From the IMG/VR virus record IMGVR_UViG_3300035181_001685, positions 1-34,281 of that record: a stretch of 34,281 nt of DNA; one strand, written 5' to 3'. The position numbers and the translations under genes are program-made. The stretch comes from a virus. The notes below the pieces were generated by a model, which worked only from the letters and a program-made list of their open reading frames with translations, made no database searches and was not told where the DNA came from. Positions 1,324 to 32,158 of the stretch are shown in pieces; position 1 is the stretch's first letter, and every line of letters starts with the position of its first letter.

Positions 1324-2895
1324 ATGGTTTTGGTTAGCCCTGGAGTTTCCGTAACAATTATTGATGACAGTTTCTACATCCCAGCTTCTGCACCTACTGT
1401 GCCTTTATTCTTTATTGCTACCCGTGGTGATAAAAAACAAACTGATGGGATTACTGATGCACCTGGTTGCAAAGAACACAGCATTGTACGCACAATTACG
1501 TCATTAAATCAATCAGTACAAACATACGGAATTCCTTACTTTAGAAGTGATTCTAGCGGTGCAGCATTACACGGAGATTGCCGTAACGAATATGGTTTGT
1601 TTGCGCTAAATCAATATCTTGCTGTAGGTAACCGTGCATACGTTGTACGTGCAAACGTTGATACCTCAGATAACGACATAATTACTTTTAGTTCAAGCAC
1701 TCCGATTTTTGCTGGAGCAGGTAATGGAAATCTTGTTAATATTGGAATTAACCAGTTTAATGCTGTAACTGAGCTTTGGACTGCTACTGCTACAAGCCCA
1801 ACTACCTTTGCGATCTCTGGTTTCTCTTCAGGAACTCAAGGACACGCTTCAGTCGGAGTTCCTTATAACAATGGAATCGTTTCATTTACGATCAATAACG
1901 GTACTACCCCGTTTGCTGCAGGTGATACTTTTACGTTTAACGTCTTGAGCACTACGATTTCTAATCCGTTAGGTGCTAATGATGCTGCAAAGCGTGTTTC
2001 AATAGTTACTGCACTTCAAGGTGAAATTAACTTGAATCAAGATGTGCGTTCAGAGATCTATGAATACAATCTGATCATTTGCCCTGGATATCATGAAGTT
2101 GTAGATGAGCTGTTAAACTTAAACCAGTCAATCAATGAAGAAGCCTTTGTGATTGCTGACACTCCGTTTGACAAGACTCCAGAAGATACTGCAGTATGGT
2201 CAATGACCGTTGCTCGCTATCGTAGTCAAAGCGTTGCTTATTACTACCCACATGCACTTGCATCTAATCTTGACGGTAAAGATGTAGTTGTAGCAGCTTC
2301 GGGTGTAGCTCTTAAGACATACTCTTACTCTGATAATGTTTCAGAAGTTTGGTTCCCACCTGCTGGATTTAGACGTGGTGTAGTTACAGGTGTTTCAAAT
2401 GTTGGGTATGTGTCAGGTACTTTGGGAACTGCTACCACATTTGTACAAACACCTTTGAATCAAGGTCAACGTGACGTGCTGTATGAGTTCCAAAAGAACA
2501 TAAACATCATCCCGTTCTTCCCTGGACGTGGTATTGTGGTGTTTGGACAAAAAACTTCTTACAGTCTTACTTCAGCTCTTGATCGTGTAAACGTTATGCG
2601 TATGCTGGTTAAGATCAAGCGTGACATTCGTAAAGCTTCACTTGCTTACTTGTTTGAATTGAACGATCGTATTACACGTGAATCAATCAAGCAAATGATT
2701 GATGGATACTTAAACGACATCATGTTACGTCGTGGTCTATATGATTATGTTGTTATTTGTGACGATAGTAATAACACACCCACTCGAATTGATCGAAATG
2801 AACTGTGGATCGATATCGCGCTGAAACCAACAAAAGCCGTGGAATTTATCTACATTCCAATCCGTGTTGTAAGTACTGGTGCTTCTTTGCAATAA
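1324..2895 (+). CDS. Tail sheath protein (T4 gp18-like)
   Basis: This is the contractile sheath subunit that polymerises around the tail tube and shortens at infection. The N-terminus (MVLVSPGVSVTIIDDS) and the next strands (PLFFIATRGD) are typical of T4-type sheaths, where the first residues form the handshake strands between subunits. The C-terminal half contains the conserved FFPGRGIVVFGQ region and a helix with RVNVMRMLVKIKRDI. It has 523 residues, shorter than T4 gp18 (659), mostly in the outer domains. A strong Shine-Dalgarno (AAAGGAG) sits 8 nt before the ATG. A strong hairpin terminator follows, so it looks like a single-gene transcript. Codon use is typical of the structural genes here. 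Confidence 0.95.
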   Translation: MVLVSPGVSVTIIDDSFYIPASAPTVPLFFIATRGDKKQTDGITDAPGCKEHSIVRTITSLNQSVQTYGIPYFRSDSSGAALHGDCRNEYGLFALNQYLAVGNRAYVVRANVDTSDNDIITFSSSTPIFAGAGNGNLVNIGINQFNAVTELWTATATSPTTFAISGFSSGTQGHASVGVPYNNGIVSFTINNGTTPFAAGDTFTFNVLSTTISNPLGANDAAKRVSIVTALQGEINLNQDVRSEIYEYNLIICPGYHEVVDELLNLNQSINEEAFVIADTPFDKTPEDTAVWSMTVARYRSQSVAYYYPHALASNLDGKDVVVAASGVALKTYSYSDNVSEVWFPPAGFRRGVVTGVSNVGYVSGTLGTATTFVQTPLNQGQRDVLYEFQKNINIIPFFPGRGIVVFGQKTSYSLTSALDRVNVMRMLVKIKRDIRKASLAYLFELNDRITRESIKQMIDGYLNDIMLRRGLYDYVVICDDSNNTPTRIDRNELWIDIALKPTKAVEFIYIPIRVVSTGASLQ

Positions 2896-3991: not shown

Positions 3992-4495
3992 ATGAAATTA
4001 AACGAAATATTTGATTCAACCATAAAATTAAACTGGAAACAAGAGTCAAAAGATCTAACGTTTGCTGAGTTTGAAGTAGACAATATTCAATATGAGTGTT
4101 TTATTGAAGCTGGAACATATGAGTTCGAAGGACATGAACTTTCTTTCTTAAACACAGGTTTTTCTAGAGTCAGTGGAAGTGATAAAATATTTGACTTAAC
4201 GTTAGAAACAAAAGATTCTATTAAAGTGTTGGGTGCAGTGATAAATGGAGTTTCTAAAAAGATAGAAGAGTATCATGCTGATGCTGTGATGTTAAGTGCT
4301 GTAGATAACGTTGAAAAACGAATGAGAATTTATCAATGGATTGCAAGAAAGTTCTCTACTAAGTTTGGAATTTGGATAAAATCAATTACAGTTCCTAACG
4401 GTAAAGTAACACTTCTAATTAGTTCAAAGTTAGATAAAGCTTTAATTAATAAATTTGAAGAGCATGTAAAGCAACAAAACATTAAGAAATTGTAA
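3992..4495 (+). CDS. Unknown protein with capsid-targeting-like N-terminus and a widespread phage C-terminal domain
   Basis: I do not recognise a function. I prefer the ATG at 3992 (MKLNEIFDS) to the one at 3980 because it gives the N-terminal peptide shared by many proteins in this window; GAGAAAG just upstream can act as a ribosome site. The C-terminal half, KVLGAVINGVSKKIEEYHAD then a polar stretch and VEKRMRIYQWIARKF, shares its pattern (KV-F/L...V, I-EY, hydrophobic-x-(S/T)A, R-x-R-x-Y) with the protein at 24235-24729 and with the broken copy just upstream. That domain may have a GNAT-like alpha/beta fold, but this is a guess. The closing helix (LDKALINKFEEHVKQQ) is charged. Confidence 0.7.
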   Translation: MKLNEIFDSTIKLNWKQESKDLTFAEFEVDNIQYECFIEAGTYEFEGHELSFLNTGFSRVSGSDKIFDLTLETKDSIKVLGAVINGVSKKIEEYHADAVMLSAVDNVEKRMRIYQWIARKFSTKFGIWIKSITVPNGKVTLLISSKLDKALINKFEEHVKQQNIKKL

Positions 4496-4558: not shown

Positions 4559-5665
4559 ATGAAAATCCATGAAATCTTAACCGAAGAAACAGATGAAGTG
4601 AAAGACATGCTTCTAAAGCTTCGGAAAGATAGTACTGGTTTTCTAAATCCAGCTAAGCTCGTGAAGATCATCGCTACCCTTAAAGGTTGGTCTATTGAAA
4701 AACAAACGTTTGTATCAGATACCAATAAGATTGATATTGATGCTCAAAAAGAACTGGGTGGTTACCCTAACCTAAATTTCAGGGATGGACTGACTGTAGA
4801 TGGTAAAATTGACTGTTCATTTACTTTATTTGATAGCAACAAGTCAGGTAAGAATTACAGCGACTTGGTAGATAAAGCTTACACTGAAATGTCTTCCCTT
4901 GCAAAACATCCGATTCCAGCTAAGCCAAAATCTGGAACTTTTTACTTTTCTGATGTGACTGAACCTAAAATTGAAAAGGGTCATAGTTGGGAAACTTATG
5001 GTTTTAACTTCAAAGCTAAATACGCAAGCTCTGGTTTTTTGGTAACTGCACCGAACGGTAAGACATTTGAATTGAAAAAGGAACCTGGATATAATGGTAT
5101 TGAGATGGGTGGCTTCATTCGTTGGTATAAAACGGAAACGTCTTTTACTCAAGACGTCTTAGACGCTCTTGGTATGGAATCACATGAAACATCAAAACAG
5201 GTAGCTAGAACCCGTGAAAATACTGGTACATGTCCATGTTGCTTTAAAGAATACAAGCTTATTAGCAATAAGATGGTTCATCATGGTTATCAACGTCCTG
5301 GACATGGTTACATTGTAGGAGATTGCTTCGGTGTTGGTTACAAACCGTTCGAAAAATCTCCAGATGGAACTAAAGATTACAAGAAGGAACTTGAGAAACT
5401 TCTTACAAAAGAAGAAACTCACCTTAAAGCTCTTAAGAGCGGTAAAATAGTGCAGTTACATCATAGTACTAGCTTCCGTGGTATTAGGAAGGTTGAAATG
5501 ATTACCCAAACACATGAAGAGTGGGATAAAACTTTAAAGATTGCTATTACAAATTCTGAAACTCAAGTTAAGTATATCAAGCAGGATATTGGAACATTAG
5601 ACAAGAAGCTTGACGGTTGGAAAGAAGAAAATCTTCCTTGGGAACGGATCAATAAATCAAAGTGA
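4559..5665 (+). CDS. Zinc-binding-domain protein with capsid-targeting-like N-terminus
   Basis: The 368-residue protein starts MKIHEILTEE, matching the shared N-terminal peptide and offering an L-T-E/E cleavage site. The N-terminal half is an unrecognised alpha/beta region. Around residues 222-265 it has a metal-site-like motif: TGTCPCC, then MVHHGYQRPGHGYIVG and DCFGV. A C-x2-C pair followed by HHGYxRPG-x-G-x4-G-x-C occurs in phage and plasmid proteins of unknown role. A basic, coiled C-terminal tail (LLTKEETHLKALK ... IKQDIGTLDKKL) follows. The mix of an early-type promoter and a possible head-targeting peptide is unusual. No enzymatic activity can be assigned. Confidence 0.72.
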   Translation: MKIHEILTEETDEVKDMLLKLRKDSTGFLNPAKLVKIIATLKGWSIEKQTFVSDTNKIDIDAQKELGGYPNLNFRDGLTVDGKIDCSFTLFDSNKSGKNYSDLVDKAYTEMSSLAKHPIPAKPKSGTFYFSDVTEPKIEKGHSWETYGFNFKAKYASSGFLVTAPNGKTFELKKEPGYNGIEMGGFIRWYKTETSFTQDVLDALGMESHETSKQVARTRENTGTCPCCFKEYKLISNKMVHHGYQRPGHGYIVGDCFGVGYKPFEKSPDGTKDYKKELEKLLTKEETHLKALKSGKIVQLHHSTSFRGIRKVEMITQTHEEWDKTLKIAITNSETQVKYIKQDIGTLDKKLDGWKEENLPWERINKSK

Positions 5666-6089: not shown

Positions 6090-6887
6090 ATGAAAAAGAA
6101 TTTTAAGAAATTTTTAGATGAAGATATTACTATCAATGGTAAGTCTCTTCAAATTACAGTGTCTCACGATCCTACAACTTCTACCAAAGATCGAATTTCA
6201 ACTTACATCAAGCGTTTGCCTTACACCACAACTATCAAGGGGGTGTCAATAAAGATCTTTTCTTTATTGAACTACGTTTCATCTGATGATGTGACTGATA
6301 TGTTGACCTCAATTAAGGGAAAGGGTCCTTATGAACTTCATAAAAAGCAGTTTGAAGTTCTAATGAAACAGCTTCGTGACGGAACTGAAAAGATCTTAAA
6401 GCAGACAAGACCTGACGTTCTTGTTTATCCAAAATCAGGATCTCCTTTCTTAAAACAGTACATTGACTCGATTAGAAATCTTGATCCTGATCTAAAGATT
6501 ATTGATAATGCTTTCTTAAAGAAACAACTTGATGGTACTGAGATTGAACCCTTGATTAACACTTCTCACCCTGACTGGGAAAAGTTTGCAAGTGAAAATC
6601 CAAAAGAAGTAGTAAAGCTAAAACGTTCTATAGCAACAAACATCCACAATGGTGTGATTGAGCTCAAGAAACTGTATAAACCGTATGTAAAGTTTATCAA
6701 GAATTTTATTGAGATGCGTGATGCATATGAACTTCTTGACAGTGTTTTAGGAAAGAAAGTTATCGTAATTGATGACATCCTTTCTTCAGGTGCTACTATG
6801 GCTGAAATGGTTAGGCAGCTTGAAGAACTAGAACCTTCTGAAATTTATGGTCTGACAGTGTTTAAACATACAACTTCTCAAAAATAA
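6090..6887 (+). CDS. Phosphoribosyltransferase-like protein with capsid-targeting-like N-terminus
   Basis: The 265-residue product begins MKKNFKKFLDEDIT, matching the shared N-terminal peptide with an L-D-E/D site. Near the C-terminus (about 225-245) it has GKKVIVIDDILSSGATM, the PRPP-binding loop of type I phosphoribosyltransferases (hydrophobic strand, D-D, then S-S-G-x-T). The region before it contains PDVLVYPKSGSPF, which may be the second strand of the fold. Known PRTases make or salvage nucleotides; the substrate here cannot be told. A late promoter and a ribosome-site hairpin suggest late-only expression, which fits a virion protein better than a nucleotide-metabolism enzyme. Confidence 0.75.
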   Translation: MKKNFKKFLDEDITINGKSLQITVSHDPTTSTKDRISTYIKRLPYTTTIKGVSIKIFSLLNYVSSDDVTDMLTSIKGKGPYELHKKQFEVLMKQLRDGTEKILKQTRPDVLVYPKSGSPFLKQYIDSIRNLDPDLKIIDNAFLKKQLDGTEIEPLINTSHPDWEKFASENPKEVVKLKRSIATNIHNGVIELKKLYKPYVKFIKNFIEMRDAYELLDSVLGKKVIVIDDILSSGATMAEMVRQLEELEPSEIYGLTVFKHTTSQK

Positions 6888-11904: not shown

Positions 11905-13095
11905 TTAGTACATCCAAGCTTGTTCTTTTCCGATTAAGATCTTTTCTGGAACAATTTTACCTCCATCAAGTTTCAAGATAACCTTGAATCCTCTTGGTGG
12001 TACTAATTCTTTTCTCTTAGCATAGTATTCTTCAGTCGTTTGGTCAACTTCTTCTTTTGATCTTAAAGATCTATATTTAAGCAACTCGTCTTCTAGATTC
12101 TTATATTCTGCTGAGCTTTCATCAATTTGATATTCAATGTAAGTTGAGCTATAATTATCATCCTTACCCTTTGCTTTGTCTGTTAAATCTCTAAAGCTTA
12201 CACGGTCTTGGTAGAATTTATAAGTAAAGCCCATGAACTTTACCTTTTCAAAGTAACCTTCATTGATCAATGCTGTTAATAGATCATTTGAATTATCAAA
12301 TGATTTAGCTTTGCTTGCTTTAAATGAATCAAGTTTACTTCTAAGCTCATATCCTAATGATTTAAAGTGACGTTGAGCAAGAGCTTCATAAGATGAGTAT
12401 TTGTTTGGACCTATCGCGATTCTATTTCCTGTAGGTAGAGGAATTGAACCTTCACGTGCTTTAGAACGTGAAATAGTTTTAGCTGTTCTGTCAGAATCCC
12501 TTGTGATTACCATTGTAGTAAGAGTTGCACCTTCAGTACCCTTTGCTACAGTGTATAGAGCTTTCATTACTTTCTTGATCTTTCCGATGATTGATGTGTC
12601 GGTACCTGACAAGATCTTGCTAGCTTTAAAATCCCACTCAACTTCTTGGTAAGTTTTATCACCTACGCGTTTTGTTTTACTGAAATTATTTTCATAGTCA
12701 GCAGTGGGTACAATATCAAAGAACTTAGGGCTGGCAATCATGGTATAAGAATTTTTTTCATCATATCTGGTGTCAGCGCTTGTGAGTTTATTCTTTGATA
12801 CCACTGCAAGCACTTGTTCATCATTAAACTTCAAGACAATTGCTACATTATCTTTGTCATTAAGATGATCAAATGCTTTATTTTGATCTTTATCAATAAA
12901 AGTTTCAACCTTTGAATTTCTACCGATAGTATCACCTAATTCTGATTTGTTAGTATTAAAGTAGACTTTTTTCTTGAATGCTTGTAAAAGGTGCTTGTCA
13001 ATTAAATTAAGATTTCCAAGCTCTTCTAAAAGAGCCATTTCAAACAAAAAGTTGTTATTGTCAGAGATAGTGAGAAGTTCTTGAAGAAGTTTCAT
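11905..13095 (-). CDS. Unknown 396-residue protein with capsid-targeting-like N-terminus
   Basis: This is the only long minus-strand gene that is not an endonuclease. It begins MKLLQELLTISDNN, which fits the shared N-terminal peptide up to ELL, but there is no neat L-x-E site at the usual place (LLQE is earlier). The body has no motif I recognise. It includes GDKTYQEVEWDFKASKIL, a GTPL-like GSIPLPTGNRIAIGPNKYSSY and a basic C-terminal half (ELVPPRGFKVILKLDGGK). A perfect minus-strand TATAAATA box lies 28 nt upstream of the ATG, so it is a late gene. Late timing and the N-terminus together suggest a virion or internal head protein. Confidence 0.72.
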   Translation of the reverse strand: MKLLQELLTISDNNNFLFEMALLEELGNLNLIDKHLLQAFKKKVYFNTNKSELGDTIGRNSKVETFIDKDQNKAFDHLNDKDNVAIVLKFNDEQVLAVVSKNKLTSADTRYDEKNSYTMIASPKFFDIVPTADYENNFSKTKRVGDKTYQEVEWDFKASKILSGTDTSIIGKIKKVMKALYTVAKGTEGATLTTMVITRDSDRTAKTISRSKAREGSIPLPTGNRIAIGPNKYSSYEALAQRHFKSLGYELRSKLDSFKASKAKSFDNSNDLLTALINEGYFEKVKFMGFTYKFYQDRVSFRDLTDKAKGKDDNYSSTYIEYQIDESSAEYKNLEDELLKYRSLRSKEEVDQTTEEYYAKRKELVPPRGFKVILKLDGGKIVPEKILIGKEQAWMY

Positions 13096-19916: not shown

Positions 19917-19956
19917 AAGAATAAAGGAGATTTTTATCATGAAGTTGCAAGAATTA
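19913..19956 (+). repeat. Displaced copy of a gene start (copy 2, intact)
   Basis: The intact partner of 19594-19635, about 320 bp downstream; it contains AAGGAG and the start of the next gene. Confidence 0.85.
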
Positions 19957-20421
19957 TTAGAAGCTGCTAAAGAAAAAGAGATCAAGGTCGAACCGATTGA
20001 CATGATCGCAATTCTTTTATTTGGTAAAAAGTCTGGACCGGTTAAAGATCTAAAGAGAAGCAAGGATGCGATCTTCTTGGGTGTTTCTAGTGAAAAAAGC
20101 AATTTAAAAGATCTTGATGGTAAACCACTAGTACTAACGTTTGACAATAGCACTGATTCAGGTGAGTTTGAGATTGATCCTCTTACTTCACTCAAGATTG
20201 AAAAGGGTACTGAGATAGATAAATCTTTGCGATCTCTTTATCATAAATACTCAATCACTTCTAAGAAAAAGATAGGTTATATCTCAAAGGATGATAAAAT
20301 CTATGTCAGAGAACTTCATTTAGGTAAAGAGCTTACTAAGAGCACTGCTAAGATGGTTCGTGAAGCTCTACAGATTTTAAAAACAGTGGGTATCTCTCAA
20401 GAAGAATCTACTGGAGAGTAA
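19939..20421 (+). CDS. Unknown protein with capsid-targeting-like N-terminus
   Basis: The 160-residue protein starts MKLQELLEAAKEKE, one of the best matches to the shared peptide, with an L-L-E/A site like the I-A-E/A of T4 IPIII. The remainder is basic and charged (DMIAILLFGKKSGPVKDL, SKDAIFLGVSSEKSNLKDL, ELTKSTAKMVREALQIL), as in T4 internal proteins, with no enzyme motif seen. A CATAAATA late promoter and a strong AAGGAG ribosome site point to late expression. It lies between the endonuclease and a structural gene (4 nt before the next start). An internal head protein is the most natural reading. Confidence 0.72.
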   Translation: MKLQELLEAAKEKEIKVEPIDMIAILLFGKKSGPVKDLKRSKDAIFLGVSSEKSNLKDLDGKPLVLTFDNSTDSGEFEIDPLTSLKIEKGTEIDKSLRSLYHKYSITSKKKIGYISKDDKIYVRELHLGKELTKSTAKMVREALQILKTVGISQEESTGE

Positions 20422-22112: not shown

Positions 22113-22128
22113 TTTTAAGGGATAAAAG

Positions 22129-22674
22129 ATGAGTACTAAACCACATCCACTTGAAGGTATCTTTGACATTGAACCTGGTAGTACCCCTGTGTTTCATGAC
22201 ATTCACGGTGGTACAGGGCTACCTACTAACGAAAGATCAAGTCAATTGCTTGATCCTACTTCTGGTGAAGTAGTAGAACGTAAAGTTGATGCTACTATAG
22301 ACGAGCTTGAAATAGAAGAACGTTTAGAAGATCTTCATATTGATGGACAACTTGAAACAATTCATAGCAACGCGATCATTGCGTTTGAAAAAAGTTCTAG
22401 GATGGCTGAAGAAGTTGATCCAAAGTTTGCCGCTAGAAATGCTGAAGTTGCAGCACAGTACTTGAACATTGCATTGAACGCAGTGAATTCTAGAGTTGAC
22501 GCAAAGTTTAAACGTCAAAAGGTTCGGATGTCAAAAGACATTTCACCGAAAACTGTAAATAATAACGTAATTATTGCTGATAGAAATTCTTTATTGAAAC
22601 AGATCTTTGGTACGCAAGATCAAAACAATATTGGAGACACCATTGCTGGAGAAAAAGTTAATGAAACTAGCTGA
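22129..22674 (+). CDS. Small terminase subunit (T4 gp16-like)
   Basis: The 181-residue protein has the T4 gp16 layout: an acidic disordered N-terminus (EGIFDIEPGSTPVFHD), a central helical oligomerisation region (AEEVDPKFAARNAEVAAQYL), and a C-terminal segment (VNNNVIIADRNSLLKQIFGT) resembling the NIQNATVFMGSPTELM region of gp16. It would recognise DNA and regulate the large subunit. Its last 14 nt overlap the start of a NUDIX gene. In T4 gene 17 follows at once; here it is 6 kb away. Confidence 0.78.
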   Translation: MSTKPHPLEGIFDIEPGSTPVFHDIHGGTGLPTNERSSQLLDPTSGEVVERKVDATIDELEIEERLEDLHIDGQLETIHSNAIIAFEKSSRMAEEVDPKFAARNAEVAAQYLNIALNAVNSRVDAKFKRQKVRMSKDISPKTVNNNVIIADRNSLLKQIFGTQDQNNIGDTIAGEKVNETS

Positions 22675-23077
22675 TCTATTTGAAAAGAAAAATAAACCTA
22701 ATACATCAAAGATGACTGCTTGGGTGATCCTTTATACTGAAGATAAGTTAATTCTCGGAAAGCGGGCACCTACTGTTAACAATCCAAATCTCTGGAATTT
22801 TTTCGGAGGGGGTATAGATGAAGGAGAGTCTGCTAAAGAAGCTGCTGTCAGGGAGCTTGAAGAAGAAGTAAAATATAAAGCTTCTATCGGAGATCTAAAG
22901 AAGATCACTCAGATCGGTGATGCTACTTATTTTTCTTTGAAATTAACAGGAACTTCAGGTATTAAAACATCTGATGAGATTAGTGGGATCAAAGGATTTA
23001 AGTTAACAGATCTACCTAACAATTTACACTCTAAAACTGCTAATTTCTTTAACAAACTTGATAGCATTTTAAAATAA
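22661..23077 (+). CDS. NUDIX hydrolase with capsid-targeting-like N-terminus
   Basis: The ATG at 22661 is chosen because it gives MKLADLFEKK, the shared peptide with an L-F-E/K site, overlapping the end of the small terminase gene. The 138-residue protein has a Nudix box near residues 46-68: GGGIDEGESAKEAAVRELEE then EV, matching Gx5Ex7REUxEExGU except that the last Gly is Lys. It is preceded by a typical strand pair (MTAWVILYTEDKLILGKRA, NLWNFFGGG). NUDIX enzymes cleave nucleoside diphosphate derivatives, including capped RNA ends, NADH or ADP-ribose; the substrate here is not visible. It is the first of the cargo genes between the two terminases. Confidence 0.85.
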   Translation: MKLADLFEKKNKPNTSKMTAWVILYTEDKLILGKRAPTVNNPNLWNFFGGGIDEGESAKEAAVRELEEEVKYKASIGDLKKITQIGDATYFSLKLTGTSGIKTSDEISGIKGFKLTDLPNNLHSKTANFFNKLDSILK

Positions 23078-23085
23078 AGGATTAT

Positions 23086-23487
23086 ATGAGCTTTAAAGAG
23101 TACATCATAGAAGATACAAATCCAGCTATTAATAAGATGGTGAATAAACTAATTAAGTGGTTTAAAAAAGAATATTCACAAGCGTTCAAGAATGATTATA
23201 AGATTGAATCAAAAGTTATTAGCTCAACCCAAGCTGAAGTTACACTTTACTTTGACCGCTTTTTGTCTGATAACAAGCATGACAAAGCCGAGTTTGAACT
23301 AGCTCAATCTGATTTAGTTTACGGTGGAACTAATATAGCTGAAGCTATTAAGGTTGAAGTAACTGATTCACAGTATAACGGTGAGATCGCTATGTCACTG
23401 ATCAAGCGTGGAAAAACCATTGACTGTGATTCTTTACTGTCTCAATTAACAGTAACGTTAACGTTCCCCATCAATCTTAAGAGATAA
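23086..23487 (+). CDS. Unknown protein with capsid-targeting-like N-terminus
   Basis: The 133-residue protein begins MSFKEYIIEDTNPA, very similar to T4 IPIII (MKTYQEFIAEA), with an I-I-E/D site. The rest is basic near the front (KMVNKLIKWFKKEYSQAFKN) then alternates strands (AEVTLYFDRF, AEAIKVEVTDSQYNGEIAMS). No known domain. Eight nt separate it from the NUDIX gene and 2 nt from the nucleotidyltransferase gene, so it belongs to one transcript. Confidence 0.7.
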   Translation: MSFKEYIIEDTNPAINKMVNKLIKWFKKEYSQAFKNDYKIESKVISSTQAEVTLYFDRFLSDNKHDKAEFELAQSDLVYGGTNIAEAIKVEVTDSQYNGEIAMSLIKRGKTIDCDSLLSQLTVTLTFPINLKR

Positions 23488-23489
23488 GT

Positions 23490-24248
23490 ATGAAGTTCAA
23501 ACAATTTTTAGAAGATTTTGATCCAAAGCTTGCATATCATCAAGAATTAAATCCCAAGATCTGGAAATTAGTAAACGATCAATATCAACTTGATCCTTTA
23601 GTAAAAGAACGTTTATTTACGATTGCACAACAGTTTGCGGAATCTCTTAACTTGGACGGTGGAGTTGTATCAGATTATGTCCTAACAGGTAGCAATGCCA
23701 ATTACAATTGGACAAGCTTGTCAGATCTTGACGTTCACATATTATTAGATCAAGAAAAACTGAATAGCTGTACTAATTGCAACGTTGATCTTGAAGATTG
23801 TTTGCAGGCTAAAAAATCCCTTTGGAACGATCGTCATGATATCATGATCTATGGACATGAAGTTGAAGTTTATGTTACTACTGCAGCTGAAAAACTTATT
23901 GCTGACTCAGGAACTTATTCTCTTTTAAAAGATACTTGGATTCACTTCCCTGAATTGAAGAATATGTCAATTGATACTGAACAGGTTAAAGCTAAAGCTG
24001 AAGTAATTGCTAATGAGATCGATCAAGTGATCAGATCTAAGACAGATGATCGTGAAGATATTCAAGATCTACTTGATAAGCTCTCTAAAATGCGTAGGGC
24101 TGGCCTAGAGAAGGGCGGAGAATTTTCAGTAGAAAATCTTACTTTCAAGGCTTTACGAAATAATGGCTACATTGATAAGATTAGACATTATGCAGTAAAG
24201 GCTCAAGATGATTCTTTAAGTCTCAAAGATGAAGATGAAGTTAACTGA
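23490..24248 (+). CDS. Nucleotidyltransferase with capsid-targeting-like N-terminus
   Basis: The 252-residue protein begins MKFKQFLEDFDP (F-L-E/D). At residues ~65-85 it carries VLTGSNANYNWTSLSDLDVH, the G-S...D-L-D pattern of the polymerase-beta nucleotidyltransferase superfamily (two metal-binding Asp), with the third acidic residue probably in HEVEVYVTT near 130. Members transfer nucleotides to antibiotics, tRNA or proteins; minimal NTases also occur as toxins. The CTNCNVDLEDC segment might bind metal. The C-terminal half is helical (EVIANEIDQVIRSKTDDRED). It overlaps the next gene by 14-20 nt. Confidence 0.78.
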   Translation: MKFKQFLEDFDPKLAYHQELNPKIWKLVNDQYQLDPLVKERLFTIAQQFAESLNLDGGVVSDYVLTGSNANYNWTSLSDLDVHILLDQEKLNSCTNCNVDLEDCLQAKKSLWNDRHDIMIYGHEVEVYVTTAAEKLIADSGTYSLLKDTWIHFPELKNMSIDTEQVKAKAEVIANEIDQVIRSKTDDREDIQDLLDKLSKMRRAGLEKGGEFSVENLTFKALRNNGYIDKIRHYAVKAQDDSLSLKDEDEVN

Positions 24249-24729
24249 TTTACTTGAAGCGACTACCTACATGAGACTAACTGACTTTCTAGAATCACTT
24301 GATTCTAAAGTTGAATATGATGTTATCAGTCATTCACCTTCATTGTATAAGGTGAGATCATTGATCAATGGTCGTGAGATCTTAGTTTACTTTACTTTGT
24401 CAAATCAAAGTCCTGACCATTGGATCTTTGAATTTGCTGAATCTAACGTCAAATCAAGCTCTAAATCATCTACGATCAAATTGACTGGATCGGGTGGTGA
24501 GCTAAAAGTATTTTCACTAGTCAAGACGGTATTGCTAGAGTTCATTGAACTTTACTACCCTGAGGTAATTGAGTTTACTGCAGATAAATCTGAAGGAAAC
24601 CGTGCGCGGTTGTATGCTAGAATGCTTCAGAAGTTAAATGTACCTAAGTATGAGATTGATCATGATGACTCTTACGGTGATGATTCTGTGTTTAGATTAG
24701 TTCGAGAAGACAGGGTGGGAGAACCGTAA
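24235..24729 (+). CDS. Protein with two tandem capsid-targeting-like peptides and a GNAT-like domain
   Basis: From the ATG at 24235 the protein starts MKLTDLLEATTY and then MRLTDFLESLDS: the N-terminal peptide occurs twice in a row, encoded by a diverged 36-bp repeat (24235-24270 and 24271-24306). An earlier ATG (24229) would add MK. The rest (164 residues in all) has ELKVFSLVKTVLLEFIELYY, VIEFTADKSEGNRARLYARM, a domain widespread in phages with the R-x-R-x-Y pattern also found in the gene at 3992. It may be GNAT-like. Unknown activity. It overlaps the nucleotidyltransferase gene and abuts the protease gene. Confidence 0.7.
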   Translation: MKLTDLLEATTYMRLTDFLESLDSKVEYDVISHSPSLYKVRSLINGREILVYFTLSNQSPDHWIFEFAESNVKSSSKSSTIKLTGSGGELKVFSLVKTVLLEFIELYYPEVIEFTADKSEGNRARLYARMLQKLNVPKYEIDHDDSYGDDSVFRLVREDRVGEP

Positions 24730-25578
24730 ATGAAATCATTTAAAGAGTTTTTGATTGAAGGTTTGATAAAGCTTCCCAAGAAGACAACTCAAGAAGTATT
24801 TGAAAGAGTCTTAGCAAATTATCTATCTTATATTAAAGCGAATGCAGATCCGATCAAACAAAAGAAGCACTTAGAAGTAGTTAATAAGCTTGCTACATAC
24901 TATGGTGTAAAACTATCTAGGTTCATTAAAAAGAATTTTGTTTTCTCTGTAAAGCTTGATGTTTCTGATCTTCCGGCTAGCTATAAAGCTTCTCATGATC
25001 TAAAAGATTTGATTGTAGTAGTTGATTGGGAAGGTAAGATCGGACATTTTGAATCAGAAGCAGATGCTGCTTGGTTTGAAAAACAACAGATCTTAGCGTT
25101 TAACCCTGATAGAATAATTGAAACGCTACGTCCGTATACTGATCCAGCTGACATTCAATTTGCAGTTGGAAAGTTCAAAGCAGATCTTGATCATGAGATG
25201 ACTCACGTAGTACAAGATCTAGTGCTGTCAAAACATGACAAGAGCCAGTCTGATACAAACGGTTATCTTGACCCAGACATTGATGATAAAGAGCTAAGAA
25301 AAAGATACTACACTAGTAAGATAGAGTTTGATCCTTCAATCAAGAGTGCCATGATGGAATTCCACCATGACATCTTATTGTCAAAGCACTTTAAGGATAA
25401 AGCCAAGTTAAGAGAAGCAATCGATACTTTTGTTGGGATCAAGAGCCCTAAAGGGTCAAGCTTCTTTAAAACTAACGAACTGTTCAAGACTCTCAAGAAA
25501 GCAGATCACTCAAAGTGGAAGAAAGCAGTGAAGCTTTTATATTTGAACTTAGGAATTGATGTTCAAGGAGAGATCTAG
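24730..25578 (+). CDS. HExxH metalloprotease-like protein with capsid-targeting-like N-terminus
   Basis: The 282-residue protein starts MKSFKEFLIEGLIK, almost a textbook match to the T4 capsid-targeting peptide (MKTYQEFIAEA) with an L-I-E/G site. Near residues 155-165 it has DLDHEMTHVVQDLVLSKHD, an HExxH zinc-binding helix; a third ligand could be in SAMMEFHHDILLSKHF about 50 residues later. This predicts a zinc metalloprotease, but catalysis is not proven. The start directly follows the stop of the preceding gene (TAAATG). A protease bearing a packaging peptide could act on host proteins after injection. Confidence 0.75.
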   Translation: MKSFKEFLIEGLIKLPKKTTQEVFERVLANYLSYIKANADPIKQKKHLEVVNKLATYYGVKLSRFIKKNFVFSVKLDVSDLPASYKASHDLKDLIVVVDWEGKIGHFESEADAAWFEKQQILAFNPDRIIETLRPYTDPADIQFAVGKFKADLDHEMTHVVQDLVLSKHDKSQSDTNGYLDPDIDDKELRKRYYTSKIEFDPSIKSAMMEFHHDILLSKHFKDKAKLREAIDTFVGIKSPKGSSFFKTNELFKTLKKADHSKWKKAVKLLYLNLGIDVQGEI

Positions 25579-25665
25579 TGTACTATAATCAATATTTTAG
25601 TAGTTGGGATGAATATCATGACTACTTGTTACAAGGATATACTCAATTATGCCGTCTCCTTTAAT
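25579..25665 (+). CDS. Possible tiny Tyr-rich protein with GTG start
   Basis: AAGGAG lies 8 nt before a GTG that directly follows the stop of the protease gene. It gives 28 residues (MYYNQYFSSWDEYHDYLLQG...) rich in Tyr, ending inside the next gene. Support is only the ribosome site and the coupling. Confidence 0.35.
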
Positions 25666-25885
25666 TAAGAGCTATGCAGCAAAAACAAAAAAATCTGAAG
25701 CTGAAGTTGAAGCCGCTTGGGAACGAGCAAAGAAAAGTGCTGAAGGAATTCGTCGAAGCACAGTCAAAGATAAAGATTATTGGCGCTTGGTGAACGGTCT
25801 TTTAAAGAAAGAGTTAGGGTTAAATGAAGCAATGACATTTTCTGAATTTTGTCTACTAGATTGTCAGTCAACTACCACGCCCTAA
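25649..25885 (+). CDS. Small conserved phage protein, 3' end overwritten by an IS remnant
   Basis: The first ~60 residues (SPLIKSYAAKTKKSEAEVEA, AWERAKKSAEGI, DYWRLVNGLLKKELGLNEA) match a small helical domain common in phages of the form S-x-A-K-x-x-G-K-S-x-x-E-V-E-x-x-W-x-x-A-K. The last residues QSTTTP are encoded by the right end of IS remnant B (from 25867), so the natural C-terminus has been replaced. The segment MTFSEFCLLD before the junction resembles the packaging peptide, but it lies in the same frame, so I do not call it a separate gene. Confidence 0.65.
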   Translation: MPSPLIKSYAAKTKKSEAEVEAAWERAKKSAEGIRRSTVKDKDYWRLVNGLLKKELGLNEAMTFSEFCLLDCQSTTTP

Positions 25886-26012
25886 AGGACATAGCTTGCC
25901 CGCTCCCATGACCAACCAGCTTGATGCTGGATCTCTCGATTTTACTAGTCATTTTCTGTAGGGCCATTGGGATTTCTTCCAAATCGTCTGTTGATTGCTA
26001 CTATTCTAGTTA

Positions 26013-26036
26013 CTTTGACAATAATTATTGTCAAAG
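26013..26036. repeat. Perfect 24-bp palindrome
   Basis: CTTTGACAATAA and its exact complement TTATTGTCAAAG meet with no spacer. It sits 3 nt upstream of the TTGACA of the next promoter, so it may be an operator, or part of the IS left-end structure. Confidence 0.85.
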
Positions 26037-26039
26037 CAC

Positions 26040-26068
26040 TTGACAAAATTGTTTCACTAATATATACT
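26040..26068 (+). promoter_or_regulatory. Sigma70-type promoter with overlapping operator-like repeat
   Basis: TTGACA (26040-26045), a 17-nt spacer and TATACT (26063-26068) form a near-consensus bacterial promoter. TTGTTTCA (26049-26056) and TGAAACAA (26071-26078) form an 8-bp inverted repeat centred on the -10. A transcript would start near 26075 and meet the hairpin at 26100 within ~50 nt. It may be an IS-borne promoter. Confidence 0.55.
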
Positions 26069-26099
26069 ATTGAAACAAGTTAAAAAGCACGCCTTATAT

Positions 26100-26123
26100 C
26101 CTTGGCCTAAAGGCCAAGGTTTT
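26100..26123 (+). terminator. GC-rich hairpin with TTTT (IS end hairpin or terminator)
   Basis: An 8-bp stem CCTTGGCC/GGCCAAGG with TAAA loop is followed by TTTT. It could terminate the short transcript from 26040 or be the left-end hairpin of the IS remnant; both readings may hold. Confidence 0.55.
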
Positions 26124-26135
26124 ACAGCGCCATTT

Positions 26136-26143
26136 GATAAATA
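26136..26143 (+). promoter_or_regulatory. Late promoter GATAAATA
   Basis: A T4-late-type box 25 nt upstream of the ATG at 26168, just outside the IS remnant. Confidence 0.6.
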
Positions 26144-26167
26144 ACTAGTTAAATTAAGGAATATATT

Positions 26168-26560
26168 ATGAAGTTAAGTGAAATTTTAAATCCTAATGAT
26201 TATCAGCCAGGTGATGAACGTCATCCTGGTTCCCCATACTACAATGAACCGCCTGAAGATGAAAAAACTAAAGATGAGATGGTACTAGATTGGGAAGTTT
26301 TTTCTAAAGACGGTGATAGTTTAGGGATCGGAAAGCTTACAGTTGAAGTTGAAGGATTACTTGAGTGGATTGATGATGAACAGCAATATTTGATCAAAGA
26401 AGTTAAGATTAAAAAGTATGTATTAAATGGTCATACTTACACTGGAAGTCAAGTAAAAACTGAATTTGGTGAAGATAATTTTGATAAAGCATTAATTGAA
26501 GAAACTGTTCTTGATGAAATCGCTGCTAAAAAGATGTACAAGATCAAACAGTTAAGATAG
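26168..26560 (+). CDS. Unknown acidic protein with capsid-targeting-like N-terminus
   Basis: The 130-residue protein starts MKLSEILNPNDYQP: it matches the first seven positions of the shared peptide but lacks the closing L-x-E, so if packaged it may not be cut there. An acidic, Pro-rich stretch follows (PGDERHPGSPYYNEPPEDEK), then a beta-rich part (DWEVFSKDGDSLGIGKLTVE, KKYVLNGHTYTGSQVKTEF). No known domain. It has its own late promoter and precedes the ATPase-like gene by 14 nt with GGAGG between. Confidence 0.68.
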   Translation: MKLSEILNPNDYQPGDERHPGSPYYNEPPEDEKTKDEMVLDWEVFSKDGDSLGIGKLTVEVEGLLEWIDDEQQYLIKEVKIKKYVLNGHTYTGSQVKTEFGEDNFDKALIEETVLDEIAAKKMYKIKQLR

Positions 26561-26574
26561 TATACGGAGGACAT

Positions 26575-27087
26575 ATGATAGAAGATTTGTTTACAGTTCA
26601 AGAGTTTCTTGAGAAGTTTTCAGTGGGTGATAAGTTAACACCACAGCAAGAAGAATGGATCAGCAAATTTCCAAGAATCAATCTTAAGGGGGATCGTGGG
26701 AGTGGTAGAACTTCTATAGGATTAGGTTTAATTCTCTGGACTGCTTTAAAAAGTAAAACTTCTAGCATAGTAGTTGCTGCTACTTCTCAACAAGTTGATG
26801 CTTTAAGAGAACCATTCTTGCAGATGGTTCATGAAGTAGAACAGTATCTAAAGATTGATAATTTAGTTATTCGTTCTTCTAAAGACGTTCAACAGCTATC
26901 TAATCAGAGTAAAATCTTTTTTAGGGTGTCTAATTCTTTTTATTTTCGAGGGATGTCATTTGACTCTATCTTTTTAGATCTAAATTTAAGATCATTCGAT
27001 GATCTTGATGAAGAATTCTTACTTTCGGTTTTACCGACATTGACTTGTACTCAAGGTACTTTGATAATTTCACTGGAGGATAAATGA
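26575..27087 (+). CDS. Stand-alone terminase-ATPase-like P-loop protein
   Basis: The 170-residue protein looks like the N-terminal part of a large terminase motor without a nuclease domain: LTPQQEEWISKFPRINLKGD, then a Walker A-like RGSGRTS near residues 41-47, a strand/helix pair (SIVVAATSQQVDALREPFL), and a Walker B-like SIFLDLN near 140. The usual catalytic Glu after the Walker B Asp is replaced by Leu-Asn, so ATP hydrolysis may be lost. It overlaps the start of the kinase gene (ATGA) and lies 1.6 kb before the true large terminase. It could regulate packaging as a decoy subunit, or be a degenerate duplicate. Confidence 0.62.
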   Translation: MIEDLFTVQEFLEKFSVGDKLTPQQEEWISKFPRINLKGDRGSGRTSIGLGLILWTALKSKTSSIVVAATSQQVDALREPFLQMVHEVEQYLKIDNLVIRSSKDVQQLSNQSKIFFRVSNSFYFRGMSFDSIFLDLNLRSFDDLDEEFLLSVLPTLTCTQGTLIISLEDK

Positions 27088-27818
27088 AACTTACTGAACT
27101 TATTTTATCTGAAAGCCTAAATGACAAAGGGATCTTCAAAGCTGTCTTCTTTGCAGGTACACCTGCCGCTGGAAAGACCTATACGTTAGGAAAAATTACT
27201 GACGGAGCAATTCAGCCCAGGATAGTTAATACTGATAAGTTCTATGAGTTTCTAGGAAACATCACTGGTATTGATCTAGGTGAAACTGGATCAGCTGATG
27301 TTAAAGCAGAATTAGTTGATAAATCAACACAGCTTACCAAAAGTCAATTAAAGCTTTACTTGAATTCAATGCTTCCATTGTTTATTGATGGAACATCATC
27401 AAATATTAATAACATTTTGAGACGTGTAGGTATCTTAGAATCATTAGGGTATGATGTTGCAATGATTTGGATTGACGCTTCTTTAGAGACATCTTTATCA
27501 AGAGCTAAAGAACGAAACCGTCATGTATCACCTGAATTCATCAAGAGAGCTCATGAGCTCTCTGAAGAGAACAAGATATTTTATGAAAGCAAGTTTTCTA
27601 ACTTTTATTCTGTTAAAAATGACGGAGAGCTGAATAATGAAGCAATTGAAAAAGCTTATAAAAAGGTGGCTTCTTTCTTCTCTAGCTCAGTTAAAAATCC
27701 GATAGGACACAGAAATATTGTGAAGCTAAAAGAGCTAAAGCAAAAGTACTTGACTCCAGAGATCTATACTTTAGATCATCTTGAAAAATCATTAAACTCA
27801 TGGTATAGGAGAGGGTAA
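27084..27818 (+). CDS. Zeta-toxin-like P-loop kinase with capsid-targeting-like N-terminus
   Basis: The 244-residue protein starts MKLTELILSESLND, with an L-S-E/S site. FKAVFFAGTPAAGKTYTLGK near residues 18-37 holds a perfect Walker A (GTPAAGKT). PRIVNTDKFYEFLG supplies the Asp that binds substrate in zeta-type kinases, and LETSLSRAKERNRHVSPEFI provides the arginine-rich lid. Zeta toxins phosphorylate UDP-N-acetylglucosamine and block cell-wall synthesis; relatives phosphorylate other small molecules or tRNA. No antitoxin gene is adjacent, which fits delivery rather than a toxin-antitoxin pair. It overlaps both neighbours by a few nt. Confidence 0.8.
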   Translation: MKLTELILSESLNDKGIFKAVFFAGTPAAGKTYTLGKITDGAIQPRIVNTDKFYEFLGNITGIDLGETGSADVKAELVDKSTQLTKSQLKLYLNSMLPLFIDGTSSNINNILRRVGILESLGYDVAMIWIDASLETSLSRAKERNRHVSPEFIKRAHELSEENKIFYESKFSNFYSVKNDGELNNEAIEKAYKKVASFFSSSVKNPIGHRNIVKLKELKQKYLTPEIYTLDHLEKSLNSWYRRG

Positions 27819-28645
27819 TGAAGTTTAAGACATTTTTGCTTGAGTATAAAAAAATGACAGAAACTGATTTCATTGAAGCCGTGATACAAGACTGTAAGCC
27901 AGCTCTATCAGAGATCATGTCAGGTGATGATAAATATCTTTATCGTTCAGTTTCTGATGAATTAGGAGGCAGATCCAATTGGTTTGAAGAAACAGTAAGA
28001 AAAGATCGTCATCCATTAGACACTCCAGAAAGAGTCCATAATGTAATAGACAATTGGTTCTTGAAAAAATTTGGATATAAGTATCGTTCTGCTTCATTAT
28101 TCGTTTCAACTAATTATGAAATGATATTTTCTTTTTCAGATGTTACTTCTAGACCAACAACTAATATTTTTTACATCATTCCTAAAGGTTCATATAAGCT
28201 TTGTTATTCTCAAAAAACAAAAGATCTTTATATAGATTGGTTACTTAATGTTACTAGATGGACTAATTTTCTCTGTGAAAAAAAATCTGAACTTTATTAT
28301 CTAAAGATTCTTTTCGATGATGAAACCTTATCTAAGATTTCATCATCAACATACAAAAAAATTTTACGTGAATTAATTATGTTAGTAAGTCATGGTATTA
28401 TACCAACTCATCCTAAGATTAATAACGGTGATGACATTGACATTGACATTGAATTTGATAAAGATTCTGCTATAAAATTTCAAGAAACTGTGATTATAGA
28501 TCTCCTAGATGAACTTGAGTATATAGAAACAACAAAGTTTCCGAGAAATAACGTAGGTGAGATCATGTTACAATGTGATCAATATTATGCTACGCGCCAT
28601 GAAGGTCCAGATACAATGGGTAAGATCTGCTATAAACTTTCATGA
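27818..28645 (+). CDS. ADP-ribosyltransferase-like protein with capsid-targeting-like N-terminus
   Basis: The 275-residue protein starts MKFKTFLLEYKK (L-L-E/Y). The middle matches a phage family I read as ART-like: KYLYRSV near residue 40 (the Arg of the R-S-E triad), RKDRHPLDTPERVHNVIDNW, FLKKFGYKYRSASLFVST near 83-100 (the S-x-S/T strand), and IFYIIPKGSYKLCYSQKTKD. The catalytic Glu is not obvious, so activity is uncertain. T4 Alt, an ADP-ribosyltransferase, is packaged and injected with a similar N-terminal peptide, which makes this reading attractive. Its 3' end carries a 33-bp repeat that continues over the terminase start. Confidence 0.6.
   Translation: MKFKTFLLEYKKMTETDFIEAVIQDCKPALSEIMSGDDKYLYRSVSDELGGRSNWFEETVRKDRHPLDTPERVHNVIDNWFLKKFGYKYRSASLFVSTNYEMIFSFSDVTSRPTTNIFYIIPKGSYKLCYSQKTKDLYIDWLLNVTRWTNFLCEKKSELYYLKILFDDETLSKISSSTYKKILRELIMLVSHGIIPTHPKINNGDDIDIDIEFDKDSAIKFQETVIIDLLDELEYIETTKFPRNNVGEIMLQCDQYYATRHEGPDTMGKICYKLS
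28466..28498 (+). repeat. 33-bp direct repeat, copy 1
   Basis: TCTGCTATAAAATTTCAAGA and the following AACTGTGATTATA; matches 28626-28658 with two differences. It lies inside the ART-like gene. Confidence 0.85.
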
Positions 28646-28658
28646 AACTGTGATTATA
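28626..28658 (+). repeat. 33-bp direct repeat, copy 2, reaching the terL start
   Basis: Matches 28466-28498 in a different reading frame. It contains the stop of the ART-like gene (28643-28645) and ends on the first base of the large terminase ATG. Confidence 0.85.
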
Positions 28659-30187
28659 TGAAAAATGAATTCATCAAAACAGCACACACTGAATTAGAAT
28701 ATACTCCAGAACAAATCCAAGAGTTAAAAAAATGTGCTGAAGATCCTGTTTACTTTATCAGTCACTACTGTTATGTTCAACACCCTACAAAGGGTAAAGT
28801 TCTATTTAAGCTTCGTCCTTATCAAGAAAAAATTGTAAGAGCGATGCAGCACAATCGCTGGACAATTCTTCTGATCGGACGTCAAGCAGGGAAGTCTGAG
28901 ACGTCTTCTGCTTTTGCTTATTGGTTTGCATGTTTCCATTCTGACAAAAACATCTTACTCGCGTCAAACAAGCAAAAGGGTGCGACAGACTTGATGAATC
29001 GAATCAAGTTCATGTATGAAAACACTGCTAACTTTTTGCGCCCTGGTGTAAAATTTTACAATCGAGGTTCAGTTGAGTTTGATAATGACAGTAAGATCTG
29101 GTCAGAAGCTACTACCGAGACGACAGGTCGTGGTAGATCTATTTCACTGTTCATTAGCGACGAATTAGCTTTCGTAAACAAGCGAATTCAAGAAGAGATG
29201 TGGGCTTCAATTTTCCCTACTTTAGCTACCGGTGGTTCATGCGTCGTGATGTCAACTCCTAACGGTGACAGTGAACTATTTGCAGAGCTTTGGCGTGGGG
29301 CCGAAGCTGGAACTAACGGGTTTGTTCCGATCTTTGTTCCGATCACTGAGATTCCAGAACGTGATCAAGTTTGGATTGACATGATGCGTTCTAAGGTAGG
29401 AGATCTCAGATTTCAGCAAGAGTTTCTTGCTGAATTTCTATCATCTGATCCTCTCTTGATCAAGTCACTCACGTTACAAGGTTTAAAAAGTACAGTTCCA
29501 TTATACATTAACAAAGGTTTTAGCTTCTGGAAAGAGATCAGTCACAAGAAATCTTATATTATAGGTGTTGACGTTGCAGAGGGTGTTAAACAGGACTTTT
29601 CAACTATACAAGTGTTTGAACTTGAAACGTTAGAGCAAGTAGCAGAATTTCGTAATAATGAGATAAATGAAAGTCAACTATACAATGCAATAAAGTGGGT
29701 GATTTCTGAAATTTTATCAAACCGTGATAAGAACACCAACAAAGCCCCCACCGTATACTGGTCATTTGAGAACAATTCTGCTGGTGCAGCGATCGGAACA
29801 TTATATTACAATGATGAAAAGTTCCCTGAAGAAGCTCAACTGATCAATGGAAAGGGTGAGCGACTAGGGATGCGCACAGTAAACAAGCATAAGGTTGAAG
29901 CGTGTAGACAATTAAAAGGTTTGGTAGAAAAAGTCAACAATGGGATCAAGCTTAACTCAACTAAGTTGATCTTTGAACTGAAAAATTTCATCGTGACAGG
30001 AGCATCTTACGCCGCAAAGCGCGGTGCTACAGATGACTTGGTCTCAGCTCTATTGATTGTGATTCGAGTTCTCAAACAATTATCAGAATATGAACCGGAG
30101 ATCTTTGATAAGCTTTATAAGTCTGAAAATGAGTTTTATACTGAAGAGACAAATGATTATGATGAACCGATCGCGTTTTTGGTGTGA
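28658..30187 (+). CDS. Large terminase subunit (T4 gp17-like)
   Basis: The 509-residue packaging motor has Walker A LLIGRQAGKSE near residues 71-81, Walker B LFISDELAF near 164-172 with the catalytic Glu, motif C VVMSTPNGD, and a C-terminal RNase H-type nuclease: IIGVDVAEGVKQDFS near 297-311 (first Asp), YWSFENNSAGAAIG near 365 (Glu), and GATDDLVSALL near 455 (Asp pair). It is shorter than T4 gp17 (610) but has all motifs. It translocates DNA into proheads at the portal and cuts concatemers. No strong ribosome site is seen before the ATG, and the start region lies in a 33-bp repeat. Confidence 0.96.
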   Translation: MKNEFIKTAHTELEYTPEQIQELKKCAEDPVYFISHYCYVQHPTKGKVLFKLRPYQEKIVRAMQHNRWTILLIGRQAGKSETSSAFAYWFACFHSDKNILLASNKQKGATDLMNRIKFMYENTANFLRPGVKFYNRGSVEFDNDSKIWSEATTETTGRGRSISLFISDELAFVNKRIQEEMWASIFPTLATGGSCVVMSTPNGDSELFAELWRGAEAGTNGFVPIFVPITEIPERDQVWIDMMRSKVGDLRFQQEFLAEFLSSDPLLIKSLTLQGLKSTVPLYINKGFSFWKEISHKKSYIIGVDVAEGVKQDFSTIQVFELETLEQVAEFRNNEINESQLYNAIKWVISEILSNRDKNTNKAPTVYWSFENNSAGAAIGTLYYNDEKFPEEAQLINGKGERLGMRTVNKHKVEACRQLKGLVEKVNNGIKLNSTKLIFELKNFIVTGASYAAKRGATDDLVSALLIVIRVLKQLSEYEPEIFDKLYKSENEFYTEETNDYDEPIAFLV

Positions 30188-30193
30188 GATAAA

Positions 30194-30574
30194 ATGTTTA
30201 AAAAATTTCTAGAACTTTCTGAAAGCTTAGATAAGCTTTATCACTTTTCTACCGAGTCTAATTTAGCTGAAATAAAGAAACACGGTTGGAAGTTATCTCC
30301 TAGCGATGCTGTATATGGACGTGGAGTTTATCTAACGTCTGATCCTAATTTTAGAAATTTACCCTACCTAGAAGTAAAGCTTAAAGATCATAAAGCTCTT
30401 GATATTAACCAGAACGCTTCATTTCAAAGTCAAATTTCAAATCTAAGGTTAAATGATGGAGATGTAAGTGAAGCTCTTTTACAAAAGGGGTTTAAGAGCA
30501 TTAAAATACATCGAAATGATGGTACTCTTTGGGTGAACGTTCTTGATCCAAGTATAATTCAGATCTTGAGATAA
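30194..30574 (+). CDS. Small ADP-ribosyltransferase-like protein with capsid-targeting-like N-terminus
   Basis: The 126-residue protein starts MFKKFLELSESLDK, with an L-S-E/S site. The rest is a compact ART/PARP-like fold: KLYHFSTESNLAEIKKHGW (H-F-S strand and helix), GRGVYLTSDPNF (the G-x-G-V-Y-L-T/S-D signature of the NAD-binding strand), then EALLQKGFKSIKIHRNDGTL and VNVLDPSIIQIL. These features resemble short bacterial and phage ART-like proteins; the catalytic Glu cannot be assigned by eye. Starting 6 nt after the terminase gene, it gives a pair of ART-like, possibly packaged proteins on either side of terL. Confidence 0.68.
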   Translation: MFKKFLELSESLDKLYHFSTESNLAEIKKHGWKLSPSDAVYGRGVYLTSDPNFRNLPYLEVKLKDHKALDINQNASFQSQISNLRLNDGDVSEALLQKGFKSIKIHRNDGTLWVNVLDPSIIQILR

Positions 30575-30609
30575 ATGTTCTTTCTGAGCTTTATATGTTA
30601 TGATTCATA

Positions 30610-31086: not shown

Positions 31087-31089
31087 ATA
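31082..31089 (+). promoter_or_regulatory. Late promoter TATAAATA
   Basis: An exact T4 late consensus overlapping the stop of the preceding gene, 79 nt upstream of the SSB ATG. Confidence 0.62.
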
Positions 31090-31168
31090 AATCAGGTAAT
31101 CATCGAGCGATGTTAATCTGTTAATAAGTAAGCAGCAAATTTAATAAGTGTATAAGGAAATAAGAATC

Positions 31169-32095: not shown

Positions 32096-32111
32096 TTAGC
32101 GTAATACCGCA

Positions 32112-32144
32112 GAAGGGTGATCTAAAATAGGTTACCCTTCTTTT
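32112..32144 (+). terminator. Rho-independent terminator after the SSB gene
   Basis: A 12-bp stem (32112-32123 with 32129-32140, two G-U pairs) and a 5-nt loop are followed by TTTTCTTG. It separates the SSB gene from uvsX. Confidence 0.85.
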
Positions 32145-32158
32145 CTTGTGATGGAGAC

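Follow-up and report, generated by a model that had tools for sequence, protein, structure and literature searches.

The 34,281-base IMG/VR record IMGVR_UViG_3300035181_001685, analysed here over its whole length and referred to below as the window, is a fragment of a virus genome in which a series of otherwise unrelated proteins begin with a similar short peptide, here called the tag. The structural genes of the window encode a tail sheath, a neck protein, a sheath terminator, tube proteins, a head-closure protein, and the small and large terminases, and a UvsX-like recombinase is also encoded. This content of tail, neck, head-closure, terminase, and UvsX-like genes places the window in the T4 supergroup, and its source, a phage of that supergroup, is probably of jumbo size. 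By large terminase (TerL), the closest named phages are XacN1, Stenotrophomonas CM1/RAS14, Phosso, PA5oct-like phages, and Atu_ph07, all at ~37-40% identity, and a nucleotide search of positions 20001-34281 against phage records returns no match. Environmental relatives longer than the window were located via terminase and sheath and include the contigs G001 (345 kb) and G006 (239 kb), while a further contig, L017, represents a near-identical strain whose sheath protein is identical to that of the window.

The tag consists of a Met, one to three residues, and then hydrophobic-x-(E/Q/D/K)-hydrophobic-hydrophobic, usually accompanied by a hydrophobic-x-Glu. An earlier note on this DNA had listed about fifteen proteins with such a start, and all of the listed open reading frames (ORFs) are present where it placed them. 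We scored the tag with a position-specific scoring matrix (PSSM) trained on 29 N-termini of the relatives, window sequences excluded, which permits zero to two residues between the Met and the first hydrophobic position, with a score of at least 8 bits counted as strong. This matrix and its controls replaced a loose regular expression, which was so permissive that starts and internal sites could not be told apart. Nine of the fifteen listed starts score as strong, and a tenth, at 6090, does so with a three-residue leader, a setting outside the trained model (Table 1). None of the 25 other window genes tested scores above 2.2, only 4 of 988 genes reach 8 when the scored position is shifted 55 residues inward, and the binomial P for the eight automatically called window genes at this threshold is ~2e-11. 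Training on the full set, which includes the window, brings 12 of 48 window genes to 8 or more but none of 36 shifted positions and none of 123 internal Met residues, and a simple pattern is found at 9 of 80 near-start Met residues in the window versus 0 of 134 internal ones. The hydrophobic-x-Glu lies within or just after the tag core in 11 of the 15 listed starts. The claim that unrelated proteins share a tag is therefore confirmed by a profile drawn from relatives only, with shifted controls near zero, and the "about fifteen" resolves into ten strong and four weaker members. The remaining one, 34062-34281 (starting MKIINIF), is rejected: its score is 1.3, and its frame ends early, near the contig end, where a sequencing frameshift is possible. 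The interval 22661-30574, in which the set had been placed, does hold many tagged genes, but it also contains untagged ones (25649, a TerL-like fragment at 26575, and the TerL gene at 28658), and five tagged genes (3992, 4559, 6090, 11905-13095, and 19939) lie outside it. In contrast to the tagged cargo, neither the tail proteins and structural genes of the window nor the SprT-like gene at 6962 carry the tag by PSSM. The T4 late promoter TATAAATA shows no enrichment upstream of tagged genes in the window.

Table 1. Tagged genes of the window, and the two untagged genes that link it to its relatives. Scores are those of the tag PSSM.
Feature	Coordinates	Strand	Start	Score	Remarks
Tagged ORF	3992..4495	+	MKLNEIFDST	9.0	Function unassigned; DUF6934-like, Pfam E 0.0064, below cut-off
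Tagged ORF	4559..5665	+	MKIHEILTEE	9.3	LTE site; PHROGs: phage families without function
Tagged phosphoribosyltransferase-like protein	6090..6887	+	MKKNFKKFLDED	11.9 (3-residue leader)	Pfam Pribosyltran 2.9e-8
Tagged ORF (weaker)	11905..13095	-	MKLLQELLTIS	7.2	No family above cut-off in Pfam or PHROGs
Tagged ORF	19939..20421	+	MKLQELLEAA	13.5	No known family
Tagged NUDIX hydrolase	22661..23077	+	MKLADLFEKK	8.7	Pfam NUDIX 1.6e-14
Tagged ORF	23086..23487	+	MSFKEYIIED	10.3	IIE site
Tagged nucleotidyltransferase-like protein	23490..24248	+	MKFKQFLEDF	14.2	NTP_transf_2 E 0.0019, just under cut-off
Tagged ORF with two tandem tag-like peptides	24235..24729	+	MKLTDLLEATTYMRLTDFLESL	8.0	Homologues with tag-like starts
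Tagged putative metalloprotease	24730..25578	+	MKSFKEFLIEG	14.7	DHEMTH motif
Possible tagged ORF	26168..26560	+	MKLSEILNPN	4.1	
Tagged zeta-toxin/AAA_33-like kinase	27084..27818	+	MKLTELILSES	4.3 (weak)	Pfam Zeta_toxin 7.5e-8
Tagged protein of a large family found only in phages	27818..28645	+	MKFKTFLLEY	9.2	
Probable tagged ORF	30194..30574	+	MFKKFLELSES	5.5	FLE site
Tail sheath, untagged	1324..2895	+			phrog_10581 1.6e-156; links window to relatives
Large terminase (TerL), untagged	28658..30187	+			phrog_36964 1.4e-66; links window to relatives

The peptide closely resembles the capsid-targeting sequence (CTS) of phage T4. A PSSM built without T4 sequences was scored on 275 ORFs called in T4, where it places IPI at rank 2, Alt at 3, IPII at 5, IPIII at 6, gp24 at 7, the scaffold gp22 at 10, and the protease gp21 at 11; for the known set of packaged or gp21-processed T4 proteins, the area under the receiver operating characteristic curve is 0.86 (P 1e-4). 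The match is also one of position. Mutants of T4 IPIII show that residues 4 and 7 mainly affect targeting and residues 8 and 10 processing, that the protein is cut after L/I-x-E, and that an Asp at position 10 stops processing with targeting kept (PMC9026906). The hydrophobic PSSM positions P1, P4, and P5 correspond to IPIII positions 4, 7, and 8, and the conserved positions of the tag are those that serve targeting and processing in IPIII. As a separate observation, the top-scoring T4 protein is gp61.1 (L145, T4 18966-19130), a short hypothetical protein starting MKTFKEFIKED, which from its N-terminus may be an unrecognised packaged protein.

The earlier note had suggested profiling N-termini across the genome and its relatives, and such a profile both recovers the tag in the window and finds it conserved in homologues, where it is kept as a pattern while its letters differ. 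Homologues of the phosphoribosyltransferase-like protein at 6090 begin MITFKQFLSET, MTTFKEFLLDE, and MTTFKQYLSEE in relatives, and those of the NUDIX hydrolase at 22661 begin MKLEELFEKK and VKLVDIFEAP. The ORF at 19939 has homologues in four relatives (MKVQELFET, MKICELFEE, MKVHELFEA, and MKICDLFEE), and the L017 counterpart of 3992 begins MKLNETFDST. Homologues of the zeta-like kinase at 27084 carry strong tags, unlike the window copy (MKTFKEFLNEG, MKTFRQFLDES, and MITFKQFMSES), and the kinase of phage Melnitz begins MKTFAELQEG. The nucleotidyltransferase-like protein at 23490 has cyanophage homologues of 36-42% identity, with the tag pattern kept in its homologues; a 26% identical homologue of the 24730 protein in XacN1 starts MKTSFRQFLAES, and an ORF in G001, to be set beside 26168, starts MKLTEILNPNHY. 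When viral contigs were scanned, no relatives of 24730 or 6090 turned up, and 30194 matched only a contig of the same phage. In all, 103 ORFs of the window and related contigs score 8 or more and fall into ~50 cargo families. At 24229-24306, tandem tag-like peptides with a second Met at 24271 point to duplication of the tag or to a wrongly placed start.

Several members of the set are predicted enzymes. The earlier predictions of a NUDIX protein, a phosphoribosyltransferase-like protein, and a zeta-like kinase are matched by Pfam families above cut-off, the last at 32.5 bits against a family cut-off of 22.3. The nucleotidyltransferase prediction for 23490 falls just short of its Pfam cut-off, and this protein also matches phrog_36119 (3e-54, function not annotated). 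The HExxH protease prediction for 24730 has its motif but no Pfam match and stays putative. Two proteins, 27818 and 30194, had also been called ADP-ribosyltransferase-like, and neither label is confirmed. In 30194, the segment YHFS...YGRGVYLT resembles ADP-ribosyltransferases, but the PARP match is below cut-off (E 0.029), and its structure model is unusable, with a predicted local distance difference test (pLDDT) score of 36.5. For 27818, the AlphaFold model has a mean pLDDT of 82.7, with lower confidence in the first ten residues, and yields no PDB fold match at E<=0.001, matching in BFVD only other phage proteins, several from Atu_ph07. Because a good model matched nothing in the PDB and only phage proteins elsewhere, the ADP-ribosyltransferase label is not adopted; a sequence match to PDB chains and a match to T4 Alt are likewise absent.

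In six relatives (G001, G006, G008, G009, G010, and G011) a PF03420 protease (S77, T4 gp21-type) scores above the family cut-off, its alignment showing GELNHP and GVS(S/T)RG motifs, with portal, scaffold, and major capsid protein (MCP) genes nearby. The MCP of L017 and relatives has a conserved L-x-E|TA site ~40 residues in, which from its location is where a T4-like delta domain would end and be removed. L017 encodes scaffold and MCP, and since its sheath protein is identical to that of the window, the phage of the window very probably has the full cassette of portal, S77 protease, scaffold, and MCP.

The 27818 protein belongs to a family with ~60 profile matches in related contigs and Atu_ph07, some shared by overlapping contigs, nearly all of which are tagged, and members often neighbour a zeta-like kinase. 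Atu_ph07 alone has 12, 11 of them consecutive (gp053-gp063), an array of tagged genes homologous to those at 27818 and 27084 in the window. It differs in that most of its tags contain Trp, with M(K/R)Wx(Q/D)L(T/N/I)E in ten of the eleven and MRLFQLLET in gp063, and in that one gene fuses two window cargo domains. This gene, gp053, joins a 27818-type domain (residues 1-235) to a zeta-like kinase (250-462) behind a single N-terminal tag; the internal kinase is untagged, because the match to it begins at residue 8 of the window 27084 protein. A single tag in each chain is as expected of a delivery tag. In Atu_ph07, coding sequences 31-76 account for 29 virion proteins, only two of them predicted structural (PMC6102473), and gp053-gp063 lie inside this cluster; the figure of 29 is a cluster-level count, and if detection were random within the cluster, the probability that none of the eleven was detected is ~1e-6. 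Elsewhere in Atu_ph07, at 311302-316390 (L135, L164), a run of small ORFs, some not annotated in the record, has starts such as MELRDYL, MELRDLL, and MDFFDFI, which partly score with the PSSM.

We take the window to encode unrelated cargo proteins bearing a T4-type capsid-targeting tag, which would be loaded into the head, cut by a gp21-type protease, and injected at infection, and give this a probability of roughly 0.84; the earlier interpretation as internal head proteins has good inferential support. That these proteins are packaged, cleaved, and ejected, and what they target, we infer from sequence and from analogy with T4. During infection, the tag, which is probably a short amphipathic helix, would bind the scaffold core as the prohead forms. 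Cleavage after the Glu by the gp21-type S77 protease would then remove the tag, and the cut cargo would remain with the packaged DNA. When the next cell is infected, the cargo would enter with the DNA and act ahead of phage gene expression, presumably against host defence or metabolism. This cargo would comprise the NUDIX hydrolase, nucleotidyltransferase-like and phosphoribosyltransferase-like proteins, zeta-like kinase, and putative metalloprotease, together with several families without assigned function. The likeness to T4 IPI, IPII, IPIII, and Alt extends from the ~10-residue N-terminal tag, with equal hydrophobic and Glu positions, to the cassette of gp21-type protease, scaffold, and MCP (here in relatives), and to mature domains that are unrelated and encoded by accessory genes variable between phages. 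It differs in that T4 has three IPs and Alt, whereas the window has 10-14 tagged genes in 34 kb, several of them predicted enzymes, which fits the earlier proposal of a more numerous and enzymatic set; some window tags are also one or two residues shorter or longer, or without Glu. The known packaging-tag device of T4 thus very probably operates in this phage too, on cargo that is more numerous and more often enzymatic.

Several results weigh against this interpretation. The PF03420 protease was not found in the 34 kb window, which is itself a fragment, the gene lying outside it on the present account. In T4, the gp21 substrates gp23 (rank 109) and gp68 (rank 225 of 275) are not recovered by the PSSM. 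Four of the listed members are weak or fail on the PSSM, and 3992, 11905-13095, 26168, and 34062 have no hydrophobic-x-Glu after the core; tagged proteins of this kind might be packaged yet uncut. The record of PA5oct marks, gene by gene, the proteins detected by mass spectrometry (MS). Tags are few in this phage, with MKINDIITEG, VKIKDILVES, and MKSFRDYYDAS among the MS-detected starts; the loose motif shows no enrichment in the MS-detected set (P 0.26), and at a PSSM cut chosen afterwards, 6 of 89 MS-detected proteins versus 2 of 133 (P 0.047) is not a clear enrichment. Finally, tag similarity within a phage is not above that between phages, with 185 of 300 permutations reaching the observed value, so that no phage-specific receptor match is visible.

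Other explanations of the same start must be set against these data. The tag could lead to the prohead core and to cutting, with most tagged proteins being head-assembly or core components rather than injected effectors. The core proteins gp22 and gp21 and the vertex protein gp24 of T4 also score with the PSSM, and in relatives similar N-termini occur in the scaffold, in the MCP, and in small ORFs next to the protease; yet most window cargo is accessory, enzyme-like, and replaced between phages, as are the injected IPs and Alt of T4 (PMC9026906, PMC12373910), and we regard this explanation as unlikely. A start shared merely by chance, from the composition of AT-rich phage genes with Lys-rich amphipathic N-termini and no targeting role, has in its favour the occasional similar start in phiKZ, where 2 of 152 genes reach 8 with the full training set. 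It is very improbable given that shifted and internal-Met controls are near zero, that the pattern is kept in relatives while other residues change, and that known CTS proteins of T4 are recovered blind. Comparably improbable is that the tag aims at a tail, baseplate, or replication compartment instead of the capsid interior: many tagged genes do sit among tail and neck genes, but the tail proteins themselves are untagged, and the tag follows the T4 CTS positions and the hydrophobic-x-Glu cleavage rule.

Delivery from the capsid has parallels beyond T4. The ejection (inner body) proteins of phiKZ and SPN3US are likewise numerous head proteins that are packaged and ejected, with a distantly related prohead protease to cut them (PMC9026906, PMC13282480), but cleavage in phiKZ is at S/A-x-E, its starts rarely score with the tag PSSM, and a PF03420 search of phiKZ detects nothing. 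Injected polyvalent proteins (of the P1 DarB and N4 virion RNA polymerase type; PMC5512222) are also packaged effectors delivered with the DNA, but these are large multidomain proteins, in contrast to the many small, separately tagged proteins here. CTS-directed packaging, and its use by T4-like phages to load various proteins, are already published (PMC9026906, PMC12373910). The expanded, enzyme-rich tagged set was not found described in the literature searched, including a 2026 jumbo-phage review, a search that left subscription journals and preprints mostly uncovered, so that an earlier description is possible.

Other features of the window and its relatives concern terminase and structural genes. 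The TerL-like fragment at 26575-27087 resembles a terminase ATPase (Terminase_6N, E 8e-4), immediately precedes the large-terminase gene, and is kept in several relatives. In L006-L008 and L012-L014, the large-terminase gene is split near residue 258 or spans extra DNA, which suggests an intron, intein, or homing-endonuclease insertion. In the window, homing-endonuclease-like ORFs at 96-1214 (minus strand), 2925-3494, and 17979-19595, with zinc-finger-like segments read by eye, interrupt structural genes.

For T4-like jumbo phages as a group, we lean towards a modular and portable tag that would deliver at least a dozen enzymes or effectors per virion, drawn from ~50 tagged cargo families, in which the 27818 family and the zeta-like kinase would form an injected two-part effector, because they are frequent neighbours and are fused in Atu_ph07. 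Because no more than the sequence is needed to recognise the tag, candidates for injected proteins can be listed for large T4-like phages in this way. The tagged proteins of T4 inhibit restriction enzymes and modify RNA polymerase, which makes these candidates plausible early anti-defence or take-over factors. Most virion proteins of large T4-like phages have no known function, as for 102 of 131 in Atu_ph07 (PMC6102473), and the tag turns such "hypothetical" genes into directly testable ones.

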